From a virus, in the IMG/VR virus record IMGVR_UViG_3300030106_001920, positions 1-23,189 of that record: a stretch of 23,189 nt of DNA; one strand, 5' to 3'. The notes beneath the pieces were generated by a model. That model was not told where the DNA came from, ran no database searches, and was given only the letters and a program-made list of their open reading frames with translations. Shown piece after piece: positions 7,239-23,189 of the stretch. Within the stretch, counting starts at the first letter, position 1. Every line of letters starts with the position of its first letter. The translations under genes and the position numbers were made by a program.

Positions 7239-10200
7239 ATGACTAATATTTACCAACAATTTGCAAAAGATGACGAAGAAAAAAAGAATATAATAGAATT
7301 AGCTCCTAGTCAAAACATTGGCACTAGTAGTGAACCTGATTACAACCCATATTCTGAAATAACAAAACGTGATGAAGAAAGTAGAAACAATATAGTTAAA
7401 GCTAATTTGCAAGCTGTAATGAAAAAAGACCCTGAGATGGTAGGTGAAGGGTTAAGACTTGCAGAAGAAATAGGGCTTGATAAAAGTTTTGCTTTAGATA
7501 GCGATGAAGCAATAAAATTAATGCGAGAAAGAAATAGACAAAAACGATTAGAAGATTTAGAACTTGCAAAATATAGTCCTGTATTACATTTAAAACTTAC
7601 TGATCCTACGTTTGCAGCTATTGCTTATGACAATATAAGTGATTTACAAGGTTTAGAAAAATTATTTGATGACTTTAAAAGCATTCCGGAAAATGCAGCA
7701 CAAGGTTGGGAAAAAGGCAGATTAAATGTAAGAAGAGGAAAAATAGGTACGATGAAATTGTATGGCAATACAGACGAAGAATTAGATAAAGAATTAGTAG
7801 AAATTAATAAAAGATTAGAAGAAATAGAAAAAGATGGTACTGGAATATTTGAAGAAGGGTTTTCTATAATTGGACAATACTCAAAAACATTACCAGACGC
7901 ATTACAAATTGGGTTATATACAGGTGCTGCTAGTGGTGTAGCAGGTGCTGCTACAGGGCCGGGTTCTATATTTACAGCTAAAGGTGGGTTTATTGTTGGA
8001 TTTTTAGGTTCAATGGCATTTGATAGTTACGCCATAGAAGGCGGTTCAATGTATCTCGATTTATTAGAAGAAGACTTAGATAGTCAAACTTCAAGAAATA
8101 TTGCTACAGGTGTTGGTTTAGTAAATGCAGGTTTTGAATTTATTGGTTTAGGTGCAGTTGCACAACCTATAAAAAAGGCATTAATAAAAGAAACAACAAA
8201 GCAACTAACAAAAAAATTAACAAAGCCTACTGTACAAACTACAATTACAAATTTTGCTAAGAATTATTTTTTAAATAATATGTTGGCAGAATCATTAACT
8301 GAAGTAGCACAAGAAGCTACTAATGTTTTAGGTCGTGATTTAGCAGTAGCATTAAGCGATACAGATTTAGAATTAAAAATTTCAACTGAAACTGGTCGAG
8401 CAGAAATAGCAGATAGATTAACAACTACTTTTATAAGAAGTATGCAAGGTATGGCTTTAGTTGGCTTGGCAGGAAGTGGGCCAATATTTATAGGTGATTT
8501 ACAAAAAGTAAAAAAAGCAAAAGAAAATGAAGTATTTTTAAATGAACTTTCAAAAAATGCATCAGAAAGTGTTTTAAAAAAAAGAAGTGCTACAGAATAT
8601 CAAAATTTAACACAAGATTTAGGTAATGAAAAAGGTAAACCATTTGCCTATGTAGATGCACAAACTGTTGTTGAAGTAATGAAACAACAAGGCATTACTA
8701 TGCAAGACATAGAACAAGTGTCACCTGCTATAGCAAACCAAATAAAAGAATTAAATAAATCAGGTGCGTTAGTTGGACAGGATATTGTTATACCTACAGG
8801 TGAATACGCAGCAAAACTTGCAAACACAGAATTTGACGGATTTTTAAAACAACATATACGTTGGGATAAAGATGATTTTAGTAAAACAGAACGTACTTAT
8901 TTTGAAGCTAATCGTGAAAAGTTATACCAAGAAGCAAAACAAATAACAGAAAAAACAGAGAATAAAAATAATAAATTTACAGAAAGTGTTGGCAAGATAA
9001 AAAACAATTTTGAAAAAATGTTATTAGATACTGGTAAATTTAGACCTAAAGACGCAACTAATGCAGCTACTTTTTATCAAAGTTATGTAATAACACAATC
9101 GGATAGGTTAGGAATAACACCTGATGAATTTGTAGAAAAATATCCATATAAAGTAGTAGGGCCAGAACAAACACAAGTACTTGAACAACAAAATTTAAAA
9201 GATGTAAAACAAGAACTTGATAAGGTAAAAAAACAATACGAAGAACATCAACAAAATATACCGCCAGAAGTGCCAGAAGACGAAAGATTTATTGCAGGGA
9301 CAGAAACAGAAGTTACTTCATTTGATCCATTAGCAGTTAACAAAGGAATGACAAGAACAAAAATGACAGAGGCGTATGCAAAACGTAGGCAATGGGAAAT
9401 AAAAAATTTAGAATTAATTAATAAAATTGAAGAGTTAGAAAGTGAAGGTGAAATATTTACACAAAGAGCAGTACAAAGTAAAGGTAAACCAATACCTGCT
9501 GAAATATTAGAACTTGGCAAATTAGAAAATAGTTTTGAATTTGCCGGTAAAACTCAATATGCAACTAATCGTGATTTTAAATTAGCATTACAACAACGTA
9601 TTAATGATGCTGCTAAACAAGCAAAAGTTAATTTATCTGATTTTTCTGTTGAAACCGAAAAACATCTTGTACAAAATTTACTTGCAGATGCAGAGTTTGC
9701 ATTAAAAACTAATCCAAATGCAGTTGGTTGGTATAACGAAAAAGTTACTAAAGCATTAGCTGTATTGTCTAAAGTGCATCCAGAAATAGCTACAGATGCA
9801 CAAGCAAGATTTGCTTTTATTTGGGCATTAGCTAATACATCTAATGGTTTAAAAGTAGATAAAAATTTTGAATTAGCAGAACAAGCATATGCATATTATG
9901 CACAAAATGGTGTAATGCCAGTTGATATAGGCATAGGTGATGCAAGTGCTGCAATTAATAACAACATGAAATTGTTTAATAGATTAATGGAAGAAAAGGG
10001 GTTTGAAGAATTTGAACAATTTATGAAAACTATGCACACCGTAAAAGAGGTAGAAGCTTTTACTGGTAGTACTGTGTCAGGAGAAAACAAAACCGAAATG
10101 GTTTATGGTGCTGCGGTAATGGGGCCAAAAATTGGTAATGGATTTTTTGCAAATTTATATGGTCAATTTGAACAATTAACTATGGATAGATGGTTAATGC

Positions 10201-13200
10201 GTACATGGGGTCGAATGACAGGTACATTAATAACTGACTATAAAAAACAAGCCAAGACAAAACGTGAACAATTAAAAAAATTAATTAAAGGTTTAAGTTT
10301 AAAAGACAAAAAAGCTTTTGAAAAAATAATTGGTATAAAAATAAAACTTAGCAATTTAGATGAGGTAGCTGTAGCGATACAAAAAGCAAGTATGAAACCT
10401 GCTAACAGAAAAGCAATGGCACAAATAGCAACTATTGAAAATACAGCTAACGCAAACCTTATAACATCTGTTTTAGGTACACCTAAGAAAAACATAGAAA
10501 GAATAGGTATAGGAGATGAATTGCGTAAAGGCGGTAATAGTTTGGCTAAATTTATTGACGGTCAAAAAGAAGCACCTACTGGGCCAGTAGAAAGAAGACA
10601 AATTAGAAAAGTATTTAATCAAGCGTTAAACTTATTGCAACAAAACGAAAAATCGCTTACAATGGCAGATCTACAAGCGTTAGTTTGGTATCCAGAAAAA
10701 CGGTTGTATGATTCTGCAAAACTTAATCAAACAGAGCAAACTACAGGTTATCAAGATAACGAAGCACCTGATTACGCTAATGCTGCTGTTAATTTGGCAC
10801 AACAACTTGGTGTGTCAGATGCTGACATACAAACTACATTACAGGAGGTAGACAATGAACTCAAACGTCAGGCCATTATCAGCACAAGAAGAAGTGAATC
10901 TGGAGAAGGAACAGGAAGAGTTGTACAACGAGATAATATTGAAACAGACGAAGCAACAGGACTCCCCCTCAACGAAGACGGAACAGTTACTATCTACCAC
11001 CACACCGACAAACAATCAGCAGACGCAATCAGAGAGTCCAATCGACTCGAATACACTACAAGAAGTGATCCCTTCTTTACCACTAGAGATACAGCAGATC
11101 TTGGCTATGGTGATACCTCAATTGCAATCAGACTCGACCCTGCTCGACTTAGTGTCGATGATGAATTCCCAGACGGACGAAGAGATTTCAGACTCAACAA
11201 TAGAAAAGCTAGAGAGTCTATTTCAGTAAAAATAGATGAAAATCCAAATGTTCCAGATTTTGCACCGACACAAGATCAAATAAATAAAAGGGCTATAGAT
11301 GGAGTTGTTGAATTAGGTGAACCATACATGGGAGAGTATGGAGATAAAAGTCCAAATGAAGTTGATAAACAATTAAGAGATAAAGCTAAAGATTTATTTT
11401 CAACACCGGCAGCGACACCAGAAGAAGCTGCTGCTGCAAGAGAGAGAATTATTGAAAAAACTAAATTAAGAAGAACAAAAGCATATTTAAAAAAACTAAG
11501 TAGTGAATTTTCTCAACAACAAGTACCTAGTGGTTTTGATGATGCAAGAGGTGGTTTTAATCCTAAAACATTAACTGCATTTTTAAATAAAGAAGCTGAT
11601 ATATCTACGTTTTTTCATGAAACAGCACATTTTATGTTAACTGTTATGGAAGATTTAGTTTTAACAGGACAAGCAACACCAGACATACAAAATGATTTTA
11701 ATGCGTTATTAGATTTTTGGGGTGTAGAAAATGTAGATGCATGGAACAAATTATCATTAGATCAAAAAAGAAAATATCACGAAGCATTTGCATATAATTA
11801 TGAAATTTATTTAACAGAAAAAAAAGCAGCACCGAGTGTTAAGTTGCAAGAAATATTTATAAAATTTGGAGATTATGTACGCAACCTTTATAGATCTATT
11901 GTTGATGATTTAAGTAAAACCTATAAAGAAGAAAATGGTGTAGATTTACCAGTTTTAACTGATGAAGTAAGGGCTGTAATGGATCGCATGATAGCTAGTG
12001 AAGATGCAATATTGCAATCGCAACAAATATACGCAATGAAACCAATGTTTGAAACACAAGAACAAAGTGGTATGGATGATGCCACATGGAACGAATACAC
12101 AAAAGCTATACAAGAAACACAGGATGCTGCTATAGATTCATTAACTAAAGCAAGTATGGGTCAACTTAAATGGCTTAGTAGAAAAGGTAAGTTAATAGAA
12201 AGATTACAAAACAGAGAAACAAGAGAAACTCGTAAAAGAGTAATGGCAGAAGAAACTGTAAAAGCAGAAAATGAACCATTGTATAAATTACAAAAGTTTT
12301 TAAAAACTGGCGAATGGAATAATAAAAAAAATGATCAATTTAAAACAGCACAAACTAGCAAAATAGATATTGATAGTTTAAAAAACCTTATGCCGTTTTA
12401 TGACATGGCATCTGAAATAAAAAAATTAGGTACAGGCAAAAACGGAATGGTTGGTAAAAACGGTATACCAGTACAAATGGTTGCAGAAATGTTTGGTTTT
12501 GATACAGCAATAGATATGGTTAATGGTTTAGTAGATTTAGAACCTATAAAAACTGTTATAAAGGAACGTACAGAACAACGTATGTTAGACGAGTTTAGTA
12601 ATTTAACAGACCCAGAACAACGTGAATTACAAATACAAGAAGCATTGCATAACGAAGCAAGAGCTAGATTTTTAGCTATTGAATTTAAATTTTTAACTAA
12701 GACTATGCAACCAGTACGTTTTCAAGTAGCTGCTGCTAGACAAGTTGCCAGAGATATATTAGCTGACAGAAAAGTTGGTGACATTAGGCCAACAGAATAC
12801 GCTCGTGCAAGTAAAAGAGCAGTTAAAGATGCAGAAAAAGCTATGCGAGAAGGTGATAATTTAAAAGTTATACAAGCAAAAAAAGCAGAGTTATTGCATA
12901 ACCAACTTGCTCGTGAAGCTGCAATAATACAAAAACAATTTAATAAAGCTGAAAAAGATTTTAAAAAGTTTTTTAAAGATACTGATAAAAAAGTTGGTGA
13001 AAAAAAATCTAGAACAGTTGAATTTGTTAACGCAGGTCAAGAAATATTATCAAGGTTTGGGTTAGGCCCAGAATTAGAAGCAGGTGCAACTTTTGTAGAT
13101 AAACTTAAAAATTATGCACCAGATTTATATAATCAATTAGAACCAATAATAACTGAAGCAAAACTATTACCCGGTAGAGATATATCAGACTTAACGTATC

Positions 13201-15551
13201 GAGATTTTAATACGTTAACTGAAATTATGGATTCATTGTGGTATCAATCTAGACGAGATCGACAATTTAAAATTGGTGAAAAATTAGTAGAACTACAAGC
13301 TATAAAAGATGAATTATTGCCACTTATGAGAGAACAAGATGACAGACTTTCTATAGATGCAGGTAAAGGAAAAGAAGCAGGTTTAATACAAAAAACAATA
13401 TTATTTTTAGAAGGACAAAAAGCAAAAGGTAATCGTGTAGAACATTGGGCAGACAGATTAGACGGTAGTGCTGCAAGTCCAAGAATTTTAAGAGGTGATG
13501 GCTTATTAGGTGGCGGTGTGTTTACAACAAAAGAGGGAGATGTAGCAGGGCCATTTACAAGATACATATGGCGAACACTTAAAGATCCACTTACAAAATG
13601 GCGATCAGAAAGGCCAAAATATACAGGACGTTATTTAGACCTATTAAAAGAATTAGATTTTGGATCAGATAAAATTAATGCTTATGAATTTGATGAACCT
13701 TATTTATTCGGTGACAGAACAGGTAGAGGTAAAGTTGAACTGCTAGGAGCATTGTTGCATACAGGAAATTTAAGCAACAAAACAAAATTGTTAGTAGGTA
13801 GAGGTTGGGGAAGTTTAAGAGAAGATGGTTCATTAGATAGCACTAAATGGGATGCATTTGAAAAACGTATGCAAGACGAAGGTTATTTAACAAAAAAAGA
13901 TTATGAATTTATACAAAAAGTATTTGATTTAAACAAAGAATTATTACCTTTAATACAACAATCACATAGAGATGTTTTTGGATATTACTTTAAAGAAATA
14001 GGTACAACTCCTATTGTTAACAGATTTGGAACATTTGAAGGGGGTTATGTACCTGCAAAGCCTGATTATATTTTAAATGAAGATTTAAATTTGAATTTAA
14101 CTTTAGAAGAAGTTAAAGAAGAAATGCGATATTCTGTACCTGCTGTGCCTAGAGGATTTACAAAAGCAAGAACAGAAGTAAACAGACCATTATCTATTAG
14201 TTTATTTGATCAAGCAAAACATTTAGATGATGCATTACGTTTTGCTTATGTACAACCTGCTGTTACAGACTTATTAAAATTATTTAATGATAAAGAATTT
14301 AAATCCGAATTAAATCGTATTGATAGATTTGCATATAAGAATATGCTTATGCCTTGGTTAGAAAATGCAGCAACACAAAGAACATCTATTAAAAAAGATG
14401 GGATGGGAATTGGAAATTTAATTGAATATTTTACAAAAAATACAAGTTTAAATTTTATGTTTGCAAGTTTAAAAAACGCTACACAACAGGTTACTGGTGT
14501 ATTACCTGCTATGTTAAATGTAGAAAAAAAATATATGACAGATGCATTTAAAAGATATACACGCAATCCAATAGAAACTTTAAATGAAGTAGCAGAAATG
14601 TCACCTTTTATGGCAGATCGTCAAATAAATCAAATGTTTGATATACAAAATACTTTGAATGATTTAATTATAAATCCAAATAAATATGGACAAATAAAAA
14701 ATTGGACAAGAAGGCACGGATATTTTTTACAACAAGCATTTCAAAATTATGTAGATAGTTTAGTTTGGATAGCAACATGGAATCAAGTAACAGCTAATGC
14801 ACCAAAAACTATGACACCACAAGAAATACAAGTTGAAGCTATAGCACAAGCAGATGCAAACGTGCGTAAAACACAAGATAGTTTATTACCAGAGGATGTA
14901 GCTGCTTATCAAATAGATACTCCTCTTATTAAAGCTATTGTTCAATTTACAAGTTATTTTAATTCACAGGCTAATTTAAACGCAACACGATATAAAAAAG
15001 TAGTTAAAGAACTCGGATTTAAAAATAGTAGATTTAGTGGTCAAATATTTTATGCATTCTTGTTTGGTTCATTTTTACCTGCTATTGTTTCTGAAGGTAT
15101 ACAAGAAGCTTTTAGTGGTGGTCTAATAGATGAAGACGAAGATGGATATTTAGATGATATTTTAGAATTTATATTTTTTTCAAATGCACGTTATACGTCA
15201 GCTTTTATTCCTACAGGCAGTACATTTTTAATGTTGCCTTTTAATTTATTTGATGACAAACCATACAATGATCGTATAACTATTAGTCCATCAATATCAT
15301 TGATAAATTCTACTGTGCAAGGAACAACAAGATTTTTTATAAATTTAGCTGACCCTAATAAAGAAGTAAAAGGTAATGAAGTAAGAAGCGTTATAACTCT
15401 TATGGGTTTAATAGGTCAAGTACCTACATATCCGTTTGCTAAAGCTATTGGTTTATTACATGATTACAAAAATGGCAGATGGATTCCAAGAGGGCCAATT
15501 GATTTAATTAGAGGTTTAGTGTCTGGTCAAAAAGGTGAAGGCAGAGATTAA
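7239..15551 (+). CDS. Giant polyvalent internal virion protein, gp16-like, with ART-like and HExxH segments
   Basis: A 2770-residue protein in the T7 gp16 position, presumably ejected with the DNA. Segments in order: charged N-terminus; Gly/Ala-rich hydrophobic stretch (about 218-270); 'AYVDAQ ... DIVIPTGEYAAKLANTEF' (about 467-550), a block common in large polyvalent phage proteins; a conserved block with GPKIGNGFFANLYGQFEQLT and MDRWLMRTWGR (about 955-997). A toxin-like segment follows with YHHT at 1253, FFTT at 1279, a GYGD and DDEFPDGRRDF at 1307, resembling ADP-ribosyltransferase-like domains. Next is a zincin-like HETAH at 1460-1464 with HEAFAYNYEIYL from 1514. Coiled-coil-rich region about 1575-1960. 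The C-terminal block (about 2480-2770) matches the usual end of this class. I see no lytic transglycosylase motif of the T7 gp16 type. GGAAGG precedes the start. A second frame is nested at 10855-11229. Confidence 0.8.
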   Translation: MTNIYQQFAKDDEEKKNIIELAPSQNIGTSSEPDYNPYSEITKRDEESRNNIVKANLQAVMKKDPEMVGEGLRLAEEIGLDKSFALDSDEAIKLMRERNRQKRLEDLELAKYSPVLHLKLTDPTFAAIAYDNISDLQGLEKLFDDFKSIPENAAQGWEKGRLNVRRGKIGTMKLYGNTDEELDKELVEINKRLEEIEKDGTGIFEEGFSIIGQYSKTLPDALQIGLYTGAASGVAGAATGPGSIFTAKGGFIVGFLGSMAFDSYAIEGGSMYLDLLEEDLDSQTSRNIATGVGLVNAGFEFIGLGAVAQPIKKALIKETTKQLTKKLTKPTVQTTITNFAKNYFLNNMLAESLTEVAQEATNVLGRDLAVALSDTDLELKISTETGRAEIADRLTTTFIRSMQGMALVGLAGSGPIFIGDLQKVKKAKENEVFLNELSKNASESVLKKRSATEYQNLTQDLGNEKGKPFAYVDAQTVVEVMKQQGITMQDIEQVSPAIANQIKELNKSGALVGQDIVIPTGEYAAKLANTEFDGFLKQHIRWDKDDFSKTERTYFEANREKLYQEAKQITEKTENKNNKFTESVGKIKNNFEKMLLDTGKFRPKDATNAATFYQSYVITQSDRLGITPDEFVEKYPYKVVGPEQTQVLEQQNLKDVKQELDKVKKQYEEHQQNIPPEVPEDERFIAGTETEVTSFDPLAVNKGMTRTKMTEAYAKRRQWEIKNLELINKIEELESEGEIFTQRAVQSKGKPIPAEILELGKLENSFEFAGKTQYATNRDFKLALQQRINDAAKQAKVNLSDFSVETEKHLVQNLLADAEFALKTNPNAVGWYNEKVTKALAVLSKVHPEIATDAQARFAFIWALANTSNGLKVDKNFELAEQAYAYYAQNGVMPVDIGIGDASAAINNNMKLFNRLMEEKGFEEFEQFMKTMHTVKEVEAFTGSTVSGENKTEMVYGAAVMGPKIGNGFFANLYGQFEQLTMDRWLMRTWGRMTGTLITDYKKQAKTKREQLKKLIKGLSLKDKKAFEKIIGIKIKLSNLDEVAVAIQKASMKPANRKAMAQIATIENTANANLITSVLGTPKKNIERIGIGDELRKGGNSLAKFIDGQKEAPTGPVERRQIRKVFNQALNLLQQNEKSLTMADLQALVWYPEKRLYDSAKLNQTEQTTGYQDNEAPDYANAAVNLAQQLGVSDADIQTTLQEVDNELKRQAIISTRRSESGEGTGRVVQRDNIETDEATGLPLNEDGTVTIYHHTDKQSADAIRESNRLEYTTRSDPFFTTRDTADLGYGDTSIAIRLDPARLSVDDEFPDGRRDFRLNNRKARESISVKIDENPNVPDFAPTQDQINKRAIDGVVELGEPYMGEYGDKSPNEVDKQLRDKAKDLFSTPAATPEEAAAARERIIEKTKLRRTKAYLKKLSSEFSQQQVPSGFDDARGGFNPKTLTAFLNKEADISTFFHETAHFMLTVMEDLVLTGQATPDIQNDFNALLDFWGVENVDAWNKLSLDQKRKYHEAFAYNYEIYLTEKKAAPSVKLQEIFIKFGDYVRNLYRSIVDDLSKTYKEENGVDLPVLTDEVRAVMDRMIASEDAILQSQQIYAMKPMFETQEQSGMDDATWNEYTKAIQETQDAAIDSLTKASMGQLKWLSRKGKLIERLQNRETRETRKRVMAEETVKAENEPLYKLQKFLKTGEWNNKKNDQFKTAQTSKIDIDSLKNLMPFYDMASEIKKLGTGKNGMVGKNGIPVQMVAEMFGFDTAIDMVNGLVDLEPIKTVIKERTEQRMLDEFSNLTDPEQRELQIQEALHNEARARFLAIEFKFLTKTMQPVRFQVAAARQVARDILADRKVGDIRPTEYARASKRAVKDAEKAMREGDNLKVIQAKKAELLHNQLAREAAIIQKQFNKAEKDFKKFFKDTDKKVGEKKSRTVEFVNAGQEILSRFGLGPELEAGATFVDKLKNYAPDLYNQLEPIITEAKLLPGRDISDLTYRDFNTLTEIMDSLWYQSRRDRQFKIGEKLVELQAIKDELLPLMREQDDRLSIDAGKGKEAGLIQKTILFLEGQKAKGNRVEHWADRLDGSAASPRILRGDGLLGGGVFTTKEGDVAGPFTRYIWRTLKDPLTKWRSERPKYTGRYLDLLKELDFGSDKINAYEFDEPYLFGDRTGRGKVELLGALLHTGNLSNKTKLLVGRGWGSLREDGSLDSTKWDAFEKRMQDEGYLTKKDYEFIQKVFDLNKELLPLIQQSHRDVFGYYFKEIGTTPIVNRFGTFEGGYVPAKPDYILNEDLNLNLTLEEVKEEMRYSVPAVPRGFTKARTEVNRPLSISLFDQAKHLDDALRFAYVQPAVTDLLKLFNDKEFKSELNRIDRFAYKNMLMPWLENAATQRTSIKKDGMGIGNLIEYFTKNTSLNFMFASLKNATQQVTGVLPAMLNVEKKYMTDAFKRYTRNPIETLNEVAEMSPFMADRQINQMFDIQNTLNDLIINPNKYGQIKNWTRRHGYFLQQAFQNYVDSLVWIATWNQVTANAPKTMTPQEIQVEAIAQADANVRKTQDSLLPEDVAAYQIDTPLIKAIVQFTSYFNSQANLNATRYKKVVKELGFKNSRFSGQIFYAFLFGSFLPAIVSEGIQEAFSGGLIDEDEDGYLDDILEFIFFSNARYTSAFIPTGSTFLMLPFNLFDDKPYNDRITISPSISLINSTVQGTTRFFINLADPNKEVKGNEVRSVITLMGLIGQVPTYPFAKAIGLLHDYKNGRWIPRGPIDLIRGLVSGQKGEGRD
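10843..10849 (+). promoter_or_regulatory. Internal Shine-Dalgarno sequence for the nested frame
   Basis: AGGAGGT lies five bases before the ATG at 10855, deep inside the giant core-protein gene. It is as good as or better than any site in front of the main genes here. In the host frame it is written with CAG GAG for Gln-Glu, whereas this genome mostly uses CAA and GAA, so the sequence looks selected rather than forced by the protein. Confidence 0.65.
10855..11229 (+). CDS. Nested +1-frame gene candidate, acidic 124-residue protein
   Basis: An ATG with a near-ideal AGGAGGT site opens 124 codons in the +1 frame of the giant gene and stops with TAA at 11227. The product has about 21 Asp/Glu against 6 Lys/Arg, is rich in Gln, Ser and Thr, and has a C-terminal half with amphipathic helix patterns (LEIQQILAMVIPQL, LLDLVSMM, STIEKLESLF). 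No family is recognised. In the host frame over this span all eight Leu codons are CTC or CTT and all eight Ile codons ATC or ATT, although TTA and ATA dominate elsewhere, while Arg, Gly, Ala and Thr still favour A-ending codons. That is what avoidance of stops in the nested frame would produce. GC rises to about 44% over 10861-11220, against about 31% over 11221-11400. The alternative is a toxin-like segment acquired from a donor with other codon habits. Confidence 0.6.
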   Translation: MNSNVRPLSAQEEVNLEKEQEELYNEIILKQTKQQDSPSTKTEQLLSTTTPTNNQQTQSESPIDSNTLQEVIPSLPLEIQQILAMVIPQLQSDSTLLDLVSMMNSQTDEEISDSTIEKLESLFQ

Positions 15552-21175: not shown

Positions 21176-21499
21176 ATGACATATAAAGGAGACAAGGTTA
21201 AAATTAATAACAGACAGAGAACACTAGAAAATGCAAGTGTTTTTACTATTAACAATTTGACCATGAGAAAAATTCTTGATGCTTTAACTATCGTATCTAC
21301 TATCCTAGTTTTGGGAATATTAGGCGGTGGTTTTTTTACATACAAATATGTAAGCAGCGAACAATTTAAAGCTAAGATTATGAATCAAATACTTGGCGAA
21401 GTTAAAGGTTTATTACCTAATGTATTAGATAAAGGATTGCCTGACATAACAGGGCCATCTATTCCTACACCACCAACACAAAAAAAATTAAAATTTTAA
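21176..21499 (+). CDS. Small membrane protein of a cyanophage-like type
   Basis: A 107-residue protein with one strong membrane segment at residues 36-56 (LTIVSTILVLGILGGGFFTY), a following basic/amphipathic part and a Pro-rich end (SIPTPPTQKK). The block from MRKILDALT onward is familiar to me from marine cyanophages, where it is an unassigned protein. The start is uncertain: ATG 21176 has no ribosome binding site, and an in-frame ATG at 21263 gives a 78-residue product. The segment between (NASVFTINNLT) looks protein-like, so I keep the longer form. It could act as a holin or an envelope protein, but neither is shown. The TAA stop is followed at once, in the same frame, by the TTG start of the next gene. 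Confidence 0.62.
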   Translation: MTYKGDKVKINNRQRTLENASVFTINNLTMRKILDALTIVSTILVLGILGGGFFTYKYVSSEQFKAKIMNQILGEVKGLLPNVLDKGLPDITGPSIPTPPTQKKLKF

Positions 21500-21501
21500 T
21501 T
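21486..21501. repeat. 16-bp AT-only perfect palindrome at a stop/start junction
   Basis: AATTAAAATTTTAATT is a perfect palindrome covering the last codons and stop of the membrane-protein gene and the first two bases of the TTG start codon of the next gene. It may be only a by-product of AT-rich codons, but it could also affect reinitiation or mRNA structure. Confidence 0.4.
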
Positions 21502-22138
21502 GGAAATACCTGAGATACATATACCTGATGTTCATATTCCATATACCTATGTGCCTGACTATAGCCATTCAAATGTACAAGTAATAGGTTGCACTTACTA
21601 CCACAGAGATACTAAAAATACAGGCAATAGAAATTTAATAATAGAAGATCCTAATGGTGTAATTAGTAATTGTCCGTACCCTAGTTTTAACCCATTAAAC
21701 TATGTACCAGATCAATTAACAATTACAGAAGAGATGCCTAATCTTGCTAATGAAAGTGAGATGCCAACTAATGAACCACCAAAAACTAAAATACCAAAAG
21801 ACAAAAAGAAGGAAGATGAATACAAACCCTGTCCTCCAGACAATGCTCCCAGAATAGGAAGTTTTGTTAACGATAAACGATTGGAGCGTATCAAAGATTA
21901 TGTTAGAGAAAGCAACGGTGATTGCACTACTGTTTATGAAGACGTACAGTTCATCGACCAGTACTTACCTACGCCTAGCATTGCTGTCTCTACTTTTTTT
22001 GTCGCTAGTATCGCTGCGAGTACTCCTCTTATTTTAAACGCTATAAAACCCCTAACGAAGCAACTTATAAAACGTCTAACTAAATCTAAGGCTTCAAAGA
22101 ATGAGAGTGAGGGATCACCTGACCGGGAGGGACAGTAA
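21500..22138 (+). CDS. Cyanophage-like Cys-containing membrane-anchored protein, TTG start
   Basis: A 212-residue protein reading MEIPEIHIPDVHIPYTYVPD from a TTG placed directly after the previous TAA in the same frame. I recall marine cyanophage proteins with this opening and with 'YHRDTKNTGNRNLIIEDPNG' (residues about 34-53), a Pro/Lys-rich middle, 'RIGSFVNDKRLERI' and a C-terminal hydrophobic helix with KPLTKQLIKRLTKSK. All of these are present, which supports the TTG start. It has four Cys in the region before the helix. One C-terminal membrane helix (about residues 162-180) followed by a basic tail suggests membrane anchoring. Function is unknown in the relatives I recall. There is no Shine-Dalgarno site. 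The last 53 bases overlap the convergent minus-strand gene. Confidence 0.68.
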   Translation: MEIPEIHIPDVHIPYTYVPDYSHSNVQVIGCTYYHRDTKNTGNRNLIIEDPNGVISNCPYPSFNPLNYVPDQLTITEEMPNLANESEMPTNEPPKTKIPKDKKKEDEYKPCPPDNAPRIGSFVNDKRLERIKDYVRESNGDCTTVYEDVQFIDQYLPTPSIAVSTFFVASIAASTPLILNAIKPLTKQLIKRLTKSKASKNESEGSPDREGQ

Positions 22139-22799
22139 CACTAATTCCCTCACATATAGATGCATACTTGCCTGTAAATTGTACTCCCAACTTAGCTTGT
22201 TCACCACATACCTTTAACCTAAACAAGGCCAATTCTAATTTTCCTTTTTCATATAATAATTTTTGGTTTTTTATATTTACCTCTGTTGCCTGATGACATA
22301 GTGCAGGTGCTTTACCTAACGGAATACTAAATTGTGCTGATATACCGTAGTTTAAATTGTAGTTATCTTTCTCAAACCTTGGTGTTTTTGTAGTGTACTT
22401 TACTGCCCCTGTATCCTCGTTGTATACGTCTTGATATGTATATTGCTCTATTGGCCTGTTAAAGCTCCATGAATCCACTACATAGGGCGTAATGGTAAGA
22501 CTAGGTGAACTGCATACAATCCCTTGTGACATCCTAAACTGGGGGCTAGAATTTGGAAGTATTTGGGTGGCATTATTATTAATAACCCCCTGTGCTTGGC
22601 TGCTCGGACTAGAAATTGTAGTGTTAGCAAGGGTTTTGGAGGGGCATAAACATAATAAAATTACTGCCCAAACGTAGTTTCTACGGTGGTGGTAGTTGTT
22701 GTATTTATGGTGCGGTTTATTGTAGTTATTGTGTCTAGGCCGGGAGAAATTACTGACTCTACCAAACTGAATGGCTGAGACTCGTTTACTATTTTCCAT
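22086..22799 (-). CDS. Exported cyanophage-like protein, uncertain start
   Basis: The convincing part is an exported domain: hydrophobic VWAVILLCLCPSKTLA, then ANTTISSPSSQAQG, a 'QFRMSQGIVCSSPSLTITPY' block, NYNLNYGISAQFSIPLG and a C-terminal coiled segment ending 'KYASICEGISV'. I recall this layout from unassigned marine cyanophage proteins with signal peptides. The only canonical start in frame is ATG at 22799, preceded by GGAAGG nine bases away. It puts 46 basic, His/Asn-rich residues before the hydrophobic core and overlaps the upstream minus-strand gene by 139 bases. A shorter form would need a non-canonical codon (ATT or GTT), and a frameshift from the upstream gene is also possible. 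The TAG stop lies inside the plus-strand gene's end (53-base overlap). Confidence 0.65.
   Translation of the reverse strand: MENSKRVSAIQFGRVSNFSRPRHNNYNKPHHKYNNYHHRRNYVWAVILLCLCPSKTLANTTISSPSSQAQGVINNNATQILPNSSPQFRMSQGIVCSSPSLTITPYVVDSWSFNRPIEQYTYQDVYNEDTGAVKYTTKTPRFEKDNYNLNYGISAQFSIPLGKAPALCHQATEVNIKNQKLLYEKGKLELALFRLKVCGEQAKLGVQFTGKYASICEGISVTVPPGQVIPHSHSLKP
22107..22153. repeat. 8-bp inverted repeat at the convergent gene junction
   Basis: GTGAGGGA (22107-22114) and TCCCTCAC (22146-22153) are exact inverted copies with a 31-base loop, centred on the overlap of the two convergent genes. There is no T run on either side, so it is a weak candidate for a two-way terminator or a chance match. 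Confidence 0.3.
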
Positions 22800-23098
22800 C
22801 TAGGTACACCTTCCAACGTAGGACTTGTGTATGAAAAGTTAACCCCATTAACTGTTTGCGTAGCTTCTGCCGTAGGAATCGAATTAATATAACCATTGAC
22901 ATCTGCACTCTCTATGTTTGACCCTGATACACTCAGAGTGTAGCCTGTACGGAACTGGTGGCTTACTATATTTTCTGTCACCACAGATTGGCTTTGAGAA
23001 TTTGTGCTTGAACTTCCTGTACGAAACGTTGGCACAACTGGGTTTGCAAAGATTTTGACAGGAAATAATATTATTAATAGCAGCCAAAATTTAATCAA
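22661..23098 (-). CDS. Small exported protein of a cyanophage-like type, TTG start
   Basis: A 145-residue protein starting at TTG 23098, with a clear signal peptide (MIKFWLLLIILFPVKIFA, likely cleavage after FA) and a Ser/Thr/Asn-rich, Cys-free mature part. The end, with 'W-KIVNESQPFSLVES...SPGLDTI' and a Thr run closing in TTFGQ, resembles small secreted proteins I recall in marine cyanophages, always beside the gene that follows here. The upstream gene's stop (TAA, 23091-23093) lies inside its first codons, an eight-base overlap, so translation is probably coupled, and there is no Shine-Dalgarno site. The role is unknown; a virion surface or envelope-exported protein is possible. Confidence 0.65.
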   Translation of the reverse strand: MIKFWLLLIILFPVKIFANPVVPTFRTGSSSTNSQSQSVVTENIVSHQFRTGYTLSVSGSNIESADVNGYINSIPTAEATQTVNGVNFSYTSPTLEGVPRWKIVNESQPFSLVESVISPGLDTITTINRTINTTTTTTVETTFGQ

Positions 23099-23189
23099 TT
23101 GTTATTTGTACAGTAGTAGATCCAATGCAACTAGAACCAGATCCAAATGCACCGCTACAAGTATGAACACCTGACGATAAAGAAGTCAT
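23091..23189 (-). CDS. C-terminal end of a third minus-strand gene (cut by window edge)
   Basis: The minus strand is open from the right edge to TAA at 23091-23093, giving 32 residues that begin MTSLSSGVHTCSGAF and end TTVQITID. An ATG happens to sit exactly at the edge, so it may be an internal Met or the true start. The fragment has two Cys and is Ser/Gly/Thr-rich like its two downstream neighbours. It overlaps the start of the next gene by eight bases, which is good evidence for a real gene in the same operon. The rest lies outside the window. Confidence 0.55.
   Translation of the reverse strand: MTSLSSGVHTCSGAFGSGSSCIGSTTVQITID

Follow-up and report, generated by a model that had tools for sequence, protein, structure and literature searches.

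What does a compact set of overlapping genes for exported and membrane proteins, lodged beside tail-fibre genes, do for the virus that carries it? The question is raised by one end of a linear virus fragment of 23,189 b, the whole of which we call the window, where three minus-strand genes (A, B and C) run tail-to-tail into two plus-strand genes (E and D), and where a sixth gene (H), found upstream of A in relatives, falls beyond the window's end. The initial annotation saw in the minus-strand genes an inverted cassette of overlapping exported proteins within the one-direction structural region of a T7-like phage, and considered secreted, surface-altering or virion-exposed roles. The overlaps are present as it described them, with 8 nt shared by A and B, 139 nt by B and C, and 53 nt by C and the convergent D (ORF coordinates), and the family matches of B, C, D and E, together with the conservation of C's open frame (see below), indicate that the cassette ORFs are not due to chance.

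Gene families of the cassette

Gene A (23091..23189, minus strand; phrog_564, T4-GC237, Syn9 gp167) encodes a small exported protein and is cut by the contig end, only its 3′ end being in the window, where the fragment weakly matches phrog_564. Since the full-length A of MED4-184 matches phrog_564 (1.3e-41) and, weakly, phrog_650 (5e-4), A and B seem to have arisen by duplication and to have diverged into distant relatives. B itself (22661..23098, minus strand; T4-GC236, Syn9 gp166) has 145 aa, a TTG start, a signal peptide and a beta-rich domain, and belongs to Pfam PF19847 (DUF6322; 2.4e-20) and phrog_650 (6e-31). C (22086..22799, minus strand; T4-GC235, Syn9 gp165) has 237 aa and matches phrog_848 (6e-57) and phrog_1755 (7e-52); it consists of a basic N-terminal extension of about 42 residues encoded inside B, a signal peptide and a domain with four cysteines that are invariant in 166/166 proteins. 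By simple hydropathy, on which all our topology calls are based, A, B and C each have one N-terminal hydrophobic segment, forming a signal peptide with an AXA motif in >95% of the sequences scored. Signal-peptide-like N-termini had been claimed for at least two of the genes, and B and C indeed carry them; the signal peptide of A lies off the contig and was judged from relatives (AXA pattern in 148 of the 153 scored), so that the exported character holds for all three.

Structural predictions add little by way of named relatives. The AlphaFold2 model of B (pLDDT 75.5, pTM 0.41) features two strands of 22–23 residues forming a long hairpin, and every significant viral match is to a protein that is either unnamed or uncharacterised, with the single named protein originating from an uncultured cyanophage-like fosmid. 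The model of C, of low confidence (pLDDT 55), shows four strands followed by a 39-residue helix and has no match in the PDB. This strand–helix resemblance prompted a comparison of C with TolC and other outer-membrane factors, which was rejected at hhalign probabilities of 0.1 and 0.6% (TolC/CusC). Profile searches against solved structures returned nothing significant, and our literature search on DUF6322 and DUF6450 (the domain of H) found no paper.

The other three families are predicted membrane proteins. D (21500..22138, plus strand; phrog_570, 3.9e-27; T4-GC234, Syn9 gp164) has 212 aa, a TTG start and no signal peptide; a Pro-rich domain with four conserved cysteines is followed by a C-terminal membrane helix (predicted in 138 of 147 D proteins by simple hydropathy) and a Lys-rich tail (median +6). 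The last two cysteines are missing together in 6/144 sequences and the third alone in three; the joint losses are consistent with disulfides and, in turn, with an exported N-terminal domain. In Synechococcus phage Sf-FR1, the gene for D (L187:5680-6456, minus strand) is annotated as “baseplate hub + tail lysozyme”, a label without NCBIfam support. E (21176..21499, plus strand; T4-GC414, Syn9 gp162) has one membrane helix and matches phrog_568 (3.6e-14) over residues 30–102; its relatives begin at the second Met, and the true start is probably the ATG at 21263 (78 aa). The “plasmid stability” label of phrog_568 is the only functional label in the module families, and it comes from PHROG alone, as E matches no plasmid-stability family in Pfam or NCBIfam. 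Finally, H (DUF6450) has two predicted helices in 80 of 112 proteins and one in 29 (simple hydropathy), and searches against holin families gave no match, only DUF6450 and unnamed PHROGs.

Distribution, gene order and conserved overlaps

Depending on the query, tblastn retrieved C from 393 to 446 phage records, nearly all from phages of marine Synechococcus and Prochlorococcus, in line with the unassigned cyanophage proteins mentioned in the initial annotation. Two IMG/VR scans yielded 160 loci, and our own profiles, applied to 172 loci, detected C in 172, B in 170, A in 165, D in 160, E in 121 and H in 118, C being the bait and hence present in 172/172 by construction, and many loci being truncated fragments. 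A, B and C are contiguous, D lies beside C (facing it in 152 loci, co-directional in 8), and H and E are just outside, which bears out the suggested association of the cassette with the membrane-protein genes at 21176-22138. Independent scatter of the homologs, a pattern that would speak against a cassette, is not what we observe: the six-family module recurs as a unit, H-A-B-C facing D-E, in constant order in T4-like, T7-like and other tailed cyanophages, carriers including P-SSP7, P-SCSP1u and Syn9. The same families in the same order are found in S-SM1 (SSM1_163-169) and Syn9 (gp161-167), and in T4-like phages the cassette sits among replication genes. Searches of bacterial genomes matched ten contigs. 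Two come from single-cell genomes of Prochlorococcus and the others from assemblies or bins of unrelated origin; phage contigs are the best reading of these matches. Some of these (L174-L176, L178-L182) are cyanophage-like contigs binned into bacterial or archaeal MAGs or included in the Nonlabens xiamenensis isolate assembly (a 188-kb contig), probably through contamination. With C lacking from the plasmid collection, the module appears from these searches to be essentially confined to cyanophages.

The sister contig L011, 90.7% identical to the window over this 2 kb, extends the view beyond A. There, H-A-B-C ends an arm that also carries RecE, RecT, DnaC-like and RusA-like genes and converges on the tail-fibre arm, which ends in E-D; the cassette is thus the end of a converging gene arm and not an inverted stretch within a region of uniform direction. 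The description of the phage as T7-like holds in part: its tail genes resemble those of MPP-C T7-like phages, whereas the window carries a Bbp16-family gene as well, and the replication arm of the sister contig departs from the T7 type. Downstream of the Bbp16-family and tail genes, the window encodes a 2770-aa protein (7239-15551, plus strand) whose sole domain match is LPD22. Promoters and terminators were no more frequent in the window than in shuffled sequences; in L011, the stretch around S and H has three terminator-like sites vs 0.9 expected.

In the T7 gene order, the slot between the tail fibre and TerS is occupied by the holin gp17.5. In P-SSP10 and P-SSP7, this slot holds a D-like gene, H, B and C, all co-directional. 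In P-SSP7, H is gp43, B is gp44 and C is gp45, while gp42 (phrog_9426) is equivalent to the window's D (phrog_570) by position and topology only. P-SCSP1u and P-RSP2 have H-B-C facing D, i.e., the window's arrangement minus A (for P-RSP2, judged solely from where the genes lie and from the C match). The module is absent from Syn5, in which the slot holds gp47 (L189:36392-36652; phrog_12220), a one-helix coiled-coil protein, part of whose family is matched by S-TIP37 gp48. Several module genes are absent from GenBank or annotated with the wrong start, plausibly due to the overlaps: B of P-SSP10 (L090:3690-4085) is present yet unannotated; C of P-SSP7 has a GTG codon in frame within B at 38627 (L171), whereas the annotated start at 38783 drops the signal peptide; and C of S-TIP37 (L185:5223) likewise loses its signal peptide to a start placed too late.

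The overlaps are themselves conserved. The out-of-frame overlap between B and C (22661..22799, minus strand) holds the start of C, and the frame offset of C relative to B is identical in 169/170 loci, the exception being MED4-184. The latter and MED4-117, as sequenced, have homopolymers of unequal length (a one-T difference) immediately after B (L001:6384-6400 vs L002:6136-6152), and this interrupts the upstream reading frame of C in MED4-184. Among podovirus-type loci, all 62 distinct sequences keep the C frame open within B, vs 7.3% expected from resampling B's synonymous codons (the sequences being related, these are not 62 independent trials), and the start of C within the overlap is ATG or GTG in all 62. 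Fourfold-site divergence is 0.39 in the overlap and 0.41 outside, falling only at C's start (0.19), and the N-terminal residues of C that the overlap encodes show no sign of selection; hence, the frame and the start are kept, while the residues of the extension are not visibly constrained. The dual-frame overlap of B and C is maintained.

The 8-nt stop–start overlap of A and B (23091..23098, minus strand; TTGATTAA) probably reflects translational coupling. Over the first 18 codons of B (23045..23098, minus strand), fourfold divergence in podovirus-type loci drops to 0.02–0.08 vs 0.41 and third positions are 0.91–0.92 conserved, a silent-site conservation that suggests a cis element or a control of initiation. 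The TTG starts of B (23098) and D (21500) are widespread in podovirus-type loci (L009-L088; B: 77/79, D: 60/67), myovirus-type loci using ATG. The tail-to-tail overlap of C and D (22086..22138) occurs in 57 of 76 podovirus-type loci, with a median of 50 nt. On the other arm, the stop of E is followed in frame by the start of D (TAA|TTG; 21497..21502, plus strand), an arrangement found in nearly all aligned podovirus-type loci, where the two mostly abut. We rejected an obligate E-D readthrough fusion: in L060, L077, L087 and S-SM1, D lies apart from E with its own start, and a T after TAA is regarded as a strong stop context, so that stop–start coupling is the preferred explanation.

A possible role at lysis and its alternatives

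Altogether, three exported proteins travel with three membrane proteins, one of which has two helices, in unrelated phages of the same hosts; in P-SSP7-type phages they occupy the slot of the T7 holin, which in Syn5 is filled by another membrane protein. In our opinion, this combination is best explained by a role in breaching the host envelope at lysis, a predicted function to which we grant slightly less than an even chance, with H as the candidate holin, D and E in the inner membrane and A, B and C exported. Briefly, H, acting like a class II holin, would permeabilise the inner membrane; D (with E) would be anchored in that membrane, its Pro-rich, disulfide-bonded domain in the periplasm; and A, B and C would be secreted to the periplasm or the outer membrane. 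After peptidoglycan loss, D would contact an assembly of C, B and A, leading to disruption of the outer membrane. The gene overlaps and the stop–start coupling may serve to hold the partners at fixed ratios, and the module as a whole would target the host envelope as infection ends, providing the outer-membrane step of lysis in phages that lack classical spanins. The more specific proposal of a spanin-independent outer-membrane disruption machine, made of secreted beta-rich A, B and C and anchored D, and exchanged among unrelated cyanophage lineages, is conceivable but rather doubtful.

This matters because it is unclear how cyanophages open Prochlorococcus and Synechococcus cells. A survey of spanins found none in about 20 cyanophages and suggests that their hosts may not need them (PMC6139136); the spanin-less list of Kongari 2018 includes P-SSP7, P-HM1/2, P-RSM4, P-SSM2/4/7, Syn1/9/19/33, S-SM1, S-SM2, S-ShM2 and others (PMC6139136), many carriers of the module being among them. 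According to the same study, an outer-membrane protein might stand in for spanins together with a type I protein of the inner membrane (PMC6139136), an outline that C and D fit. The module recurs in most of the marine cyanobacterial phages examined and would be a candidate for the missing machinery that breaks the host's outer envelope at lysis. Such a widespread exported and membrane module gives named genes to test, and a genetic system now exists for the T7-like cyanophage S-TIP37 (PMC8776855). Several observations nonetheless argue against a role at lysis. In the genomes inspected, no gene for a peptidoglycan hydrolase lies next to the module, H matches no holin family, and D, having no signal peptide, lacks an obvious route for its N-terminal domain to the periplasm. 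Moreover, S-PM2 does not have the module (PMC3037559), yet is listed as spanin-less (PMC6139136), and the same is true of Syn5 (PMC6139136). Lastly, the end of a replication arm, where H-A-B-C sits in the sister contig, is not an obvious place for late genes.

That location, compatible with earlier expression, fits the main rival of a lysis role, namely superinfection exclusion or envelope remodelling, in which secreted A, B and C would coat or block receptors or the secretion path, while D, E and H would hold them at the inner membrane. All parts of the module being membrane or exported proteins is likewise as expected. However, no PADLOC model or defence family is matched, the core proteins, conserved between phages that infect different hosts, are not obviously fast-evolving, and neither a two-helix, holin-like member nor a position in the T7 lysis slot would be expected, the synteny pointing more to lysis; we consider exclusion fairly improbable. 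The near-universality of the cluster in marine T4-like cyanophages (PMC3037559) and the beta-rich exported proteins, with a possible outer-membrane partner, would also suit a module that keeps the envelope or transport of the infected cell working, e.g., as a secretion or uptake channel. The lack of relatives among solved structures, and of any relationship to TolC or other outer-membrane factors, makes this an unlikely explanation.

As for the virion-exposed role considered initially, our results lend it no support. D and E do adjoin tail-fibre genes in the window, and B's best PDB match is a phage upper-tail protein, albeit a weak one (E 0.0098, TM-score 0.18). Yet virion proteins, being assembled in the cytoplasm, do not usually carry Sec signal peptides, the cassette lies among replication genes in T4-like phages, and the S-TIM5 record names virion proteins while leaving the cassette genes as hypothetical, so that virion-associated or fibre-decorating proteins seem quite improbable. 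Least probable by far is a selfish mobile cassette kept by a protein for plasmid stability, an idea put forward in 2010 (PMC3037559). The variable genome position and the label on phrog_568 speak for it, but E is a one-helix membrane protein of about 78 aa without a match to a plasmid-stability family, C is absent from the plasmid collection and the module behaves as a unit across several phage types.

Comparison with known systems

Among lysis proteins, the module invites comparison with two-component and unimolecular spanins (lambda Rz/Rz1, T1 gp11), with which it shares an overlapping, out-of-frame gene pair, membrane and exported partners, and a location adjoining the packaging genes in T7-like phages. 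D's C-terminal anchor and long Pro-rich domain further resemble the inner-membrane half of a u-spanin. The module nevertheless differs in having cleavable signal peptides and no lipoprotein, and no sequence relationship to spanins was found. The lipobox pattern of o-spanins occurs in 0/158 A, 2/165 B, 4/166 C and 65/147 D proteins, none of them judged real: those in B and C fall inside the hydrophobic stretch and those in D are not preceded by a signal peptide. Without a credible lipobox, the module is not a classical spanin. Neither is the layout of an i-spanin observed, as E has an N-terminal helix with only about 58 residues after it and the helix of D is C-terminal. H resembles class II holins (T7 gp17.5, phage 21 S) in its two predicted helices, its charged ends and its occupation of the same slot in P-SSP7, but matches no holin family. 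B's two long, predicted Ser/Thr-rich strands are reminiscent of beta pore formers of the aerolysin/lysenin type; lysenin and other pore formers are among the PDB matches of its model, none significant (E 0.17 or worse).

The closest counterpart is the gene cluster known in T4-like phages since Sullivan 2010 (PMC3037559), described there as a mobile cluster of hypothetical proteins (T4-GC 218/219/234/235/237) with the “plasmid stability” T4-GC414, and present in all but one of 16 cyanomyoviruses (PMC3037559). The authors proposed functional clustering and mobility, and no function beyond (PMC3037559). HMM and PHROG matches show that this cluster shares families A, B, C, D and E with the window; gene order and adjacency are likewise conserved. 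T4-GC219 was not seen in the window, which holds the podovirus version of the cluster, with A-B-C convergent on D-E beside the tail fibres and TTG as the start of both B and D.
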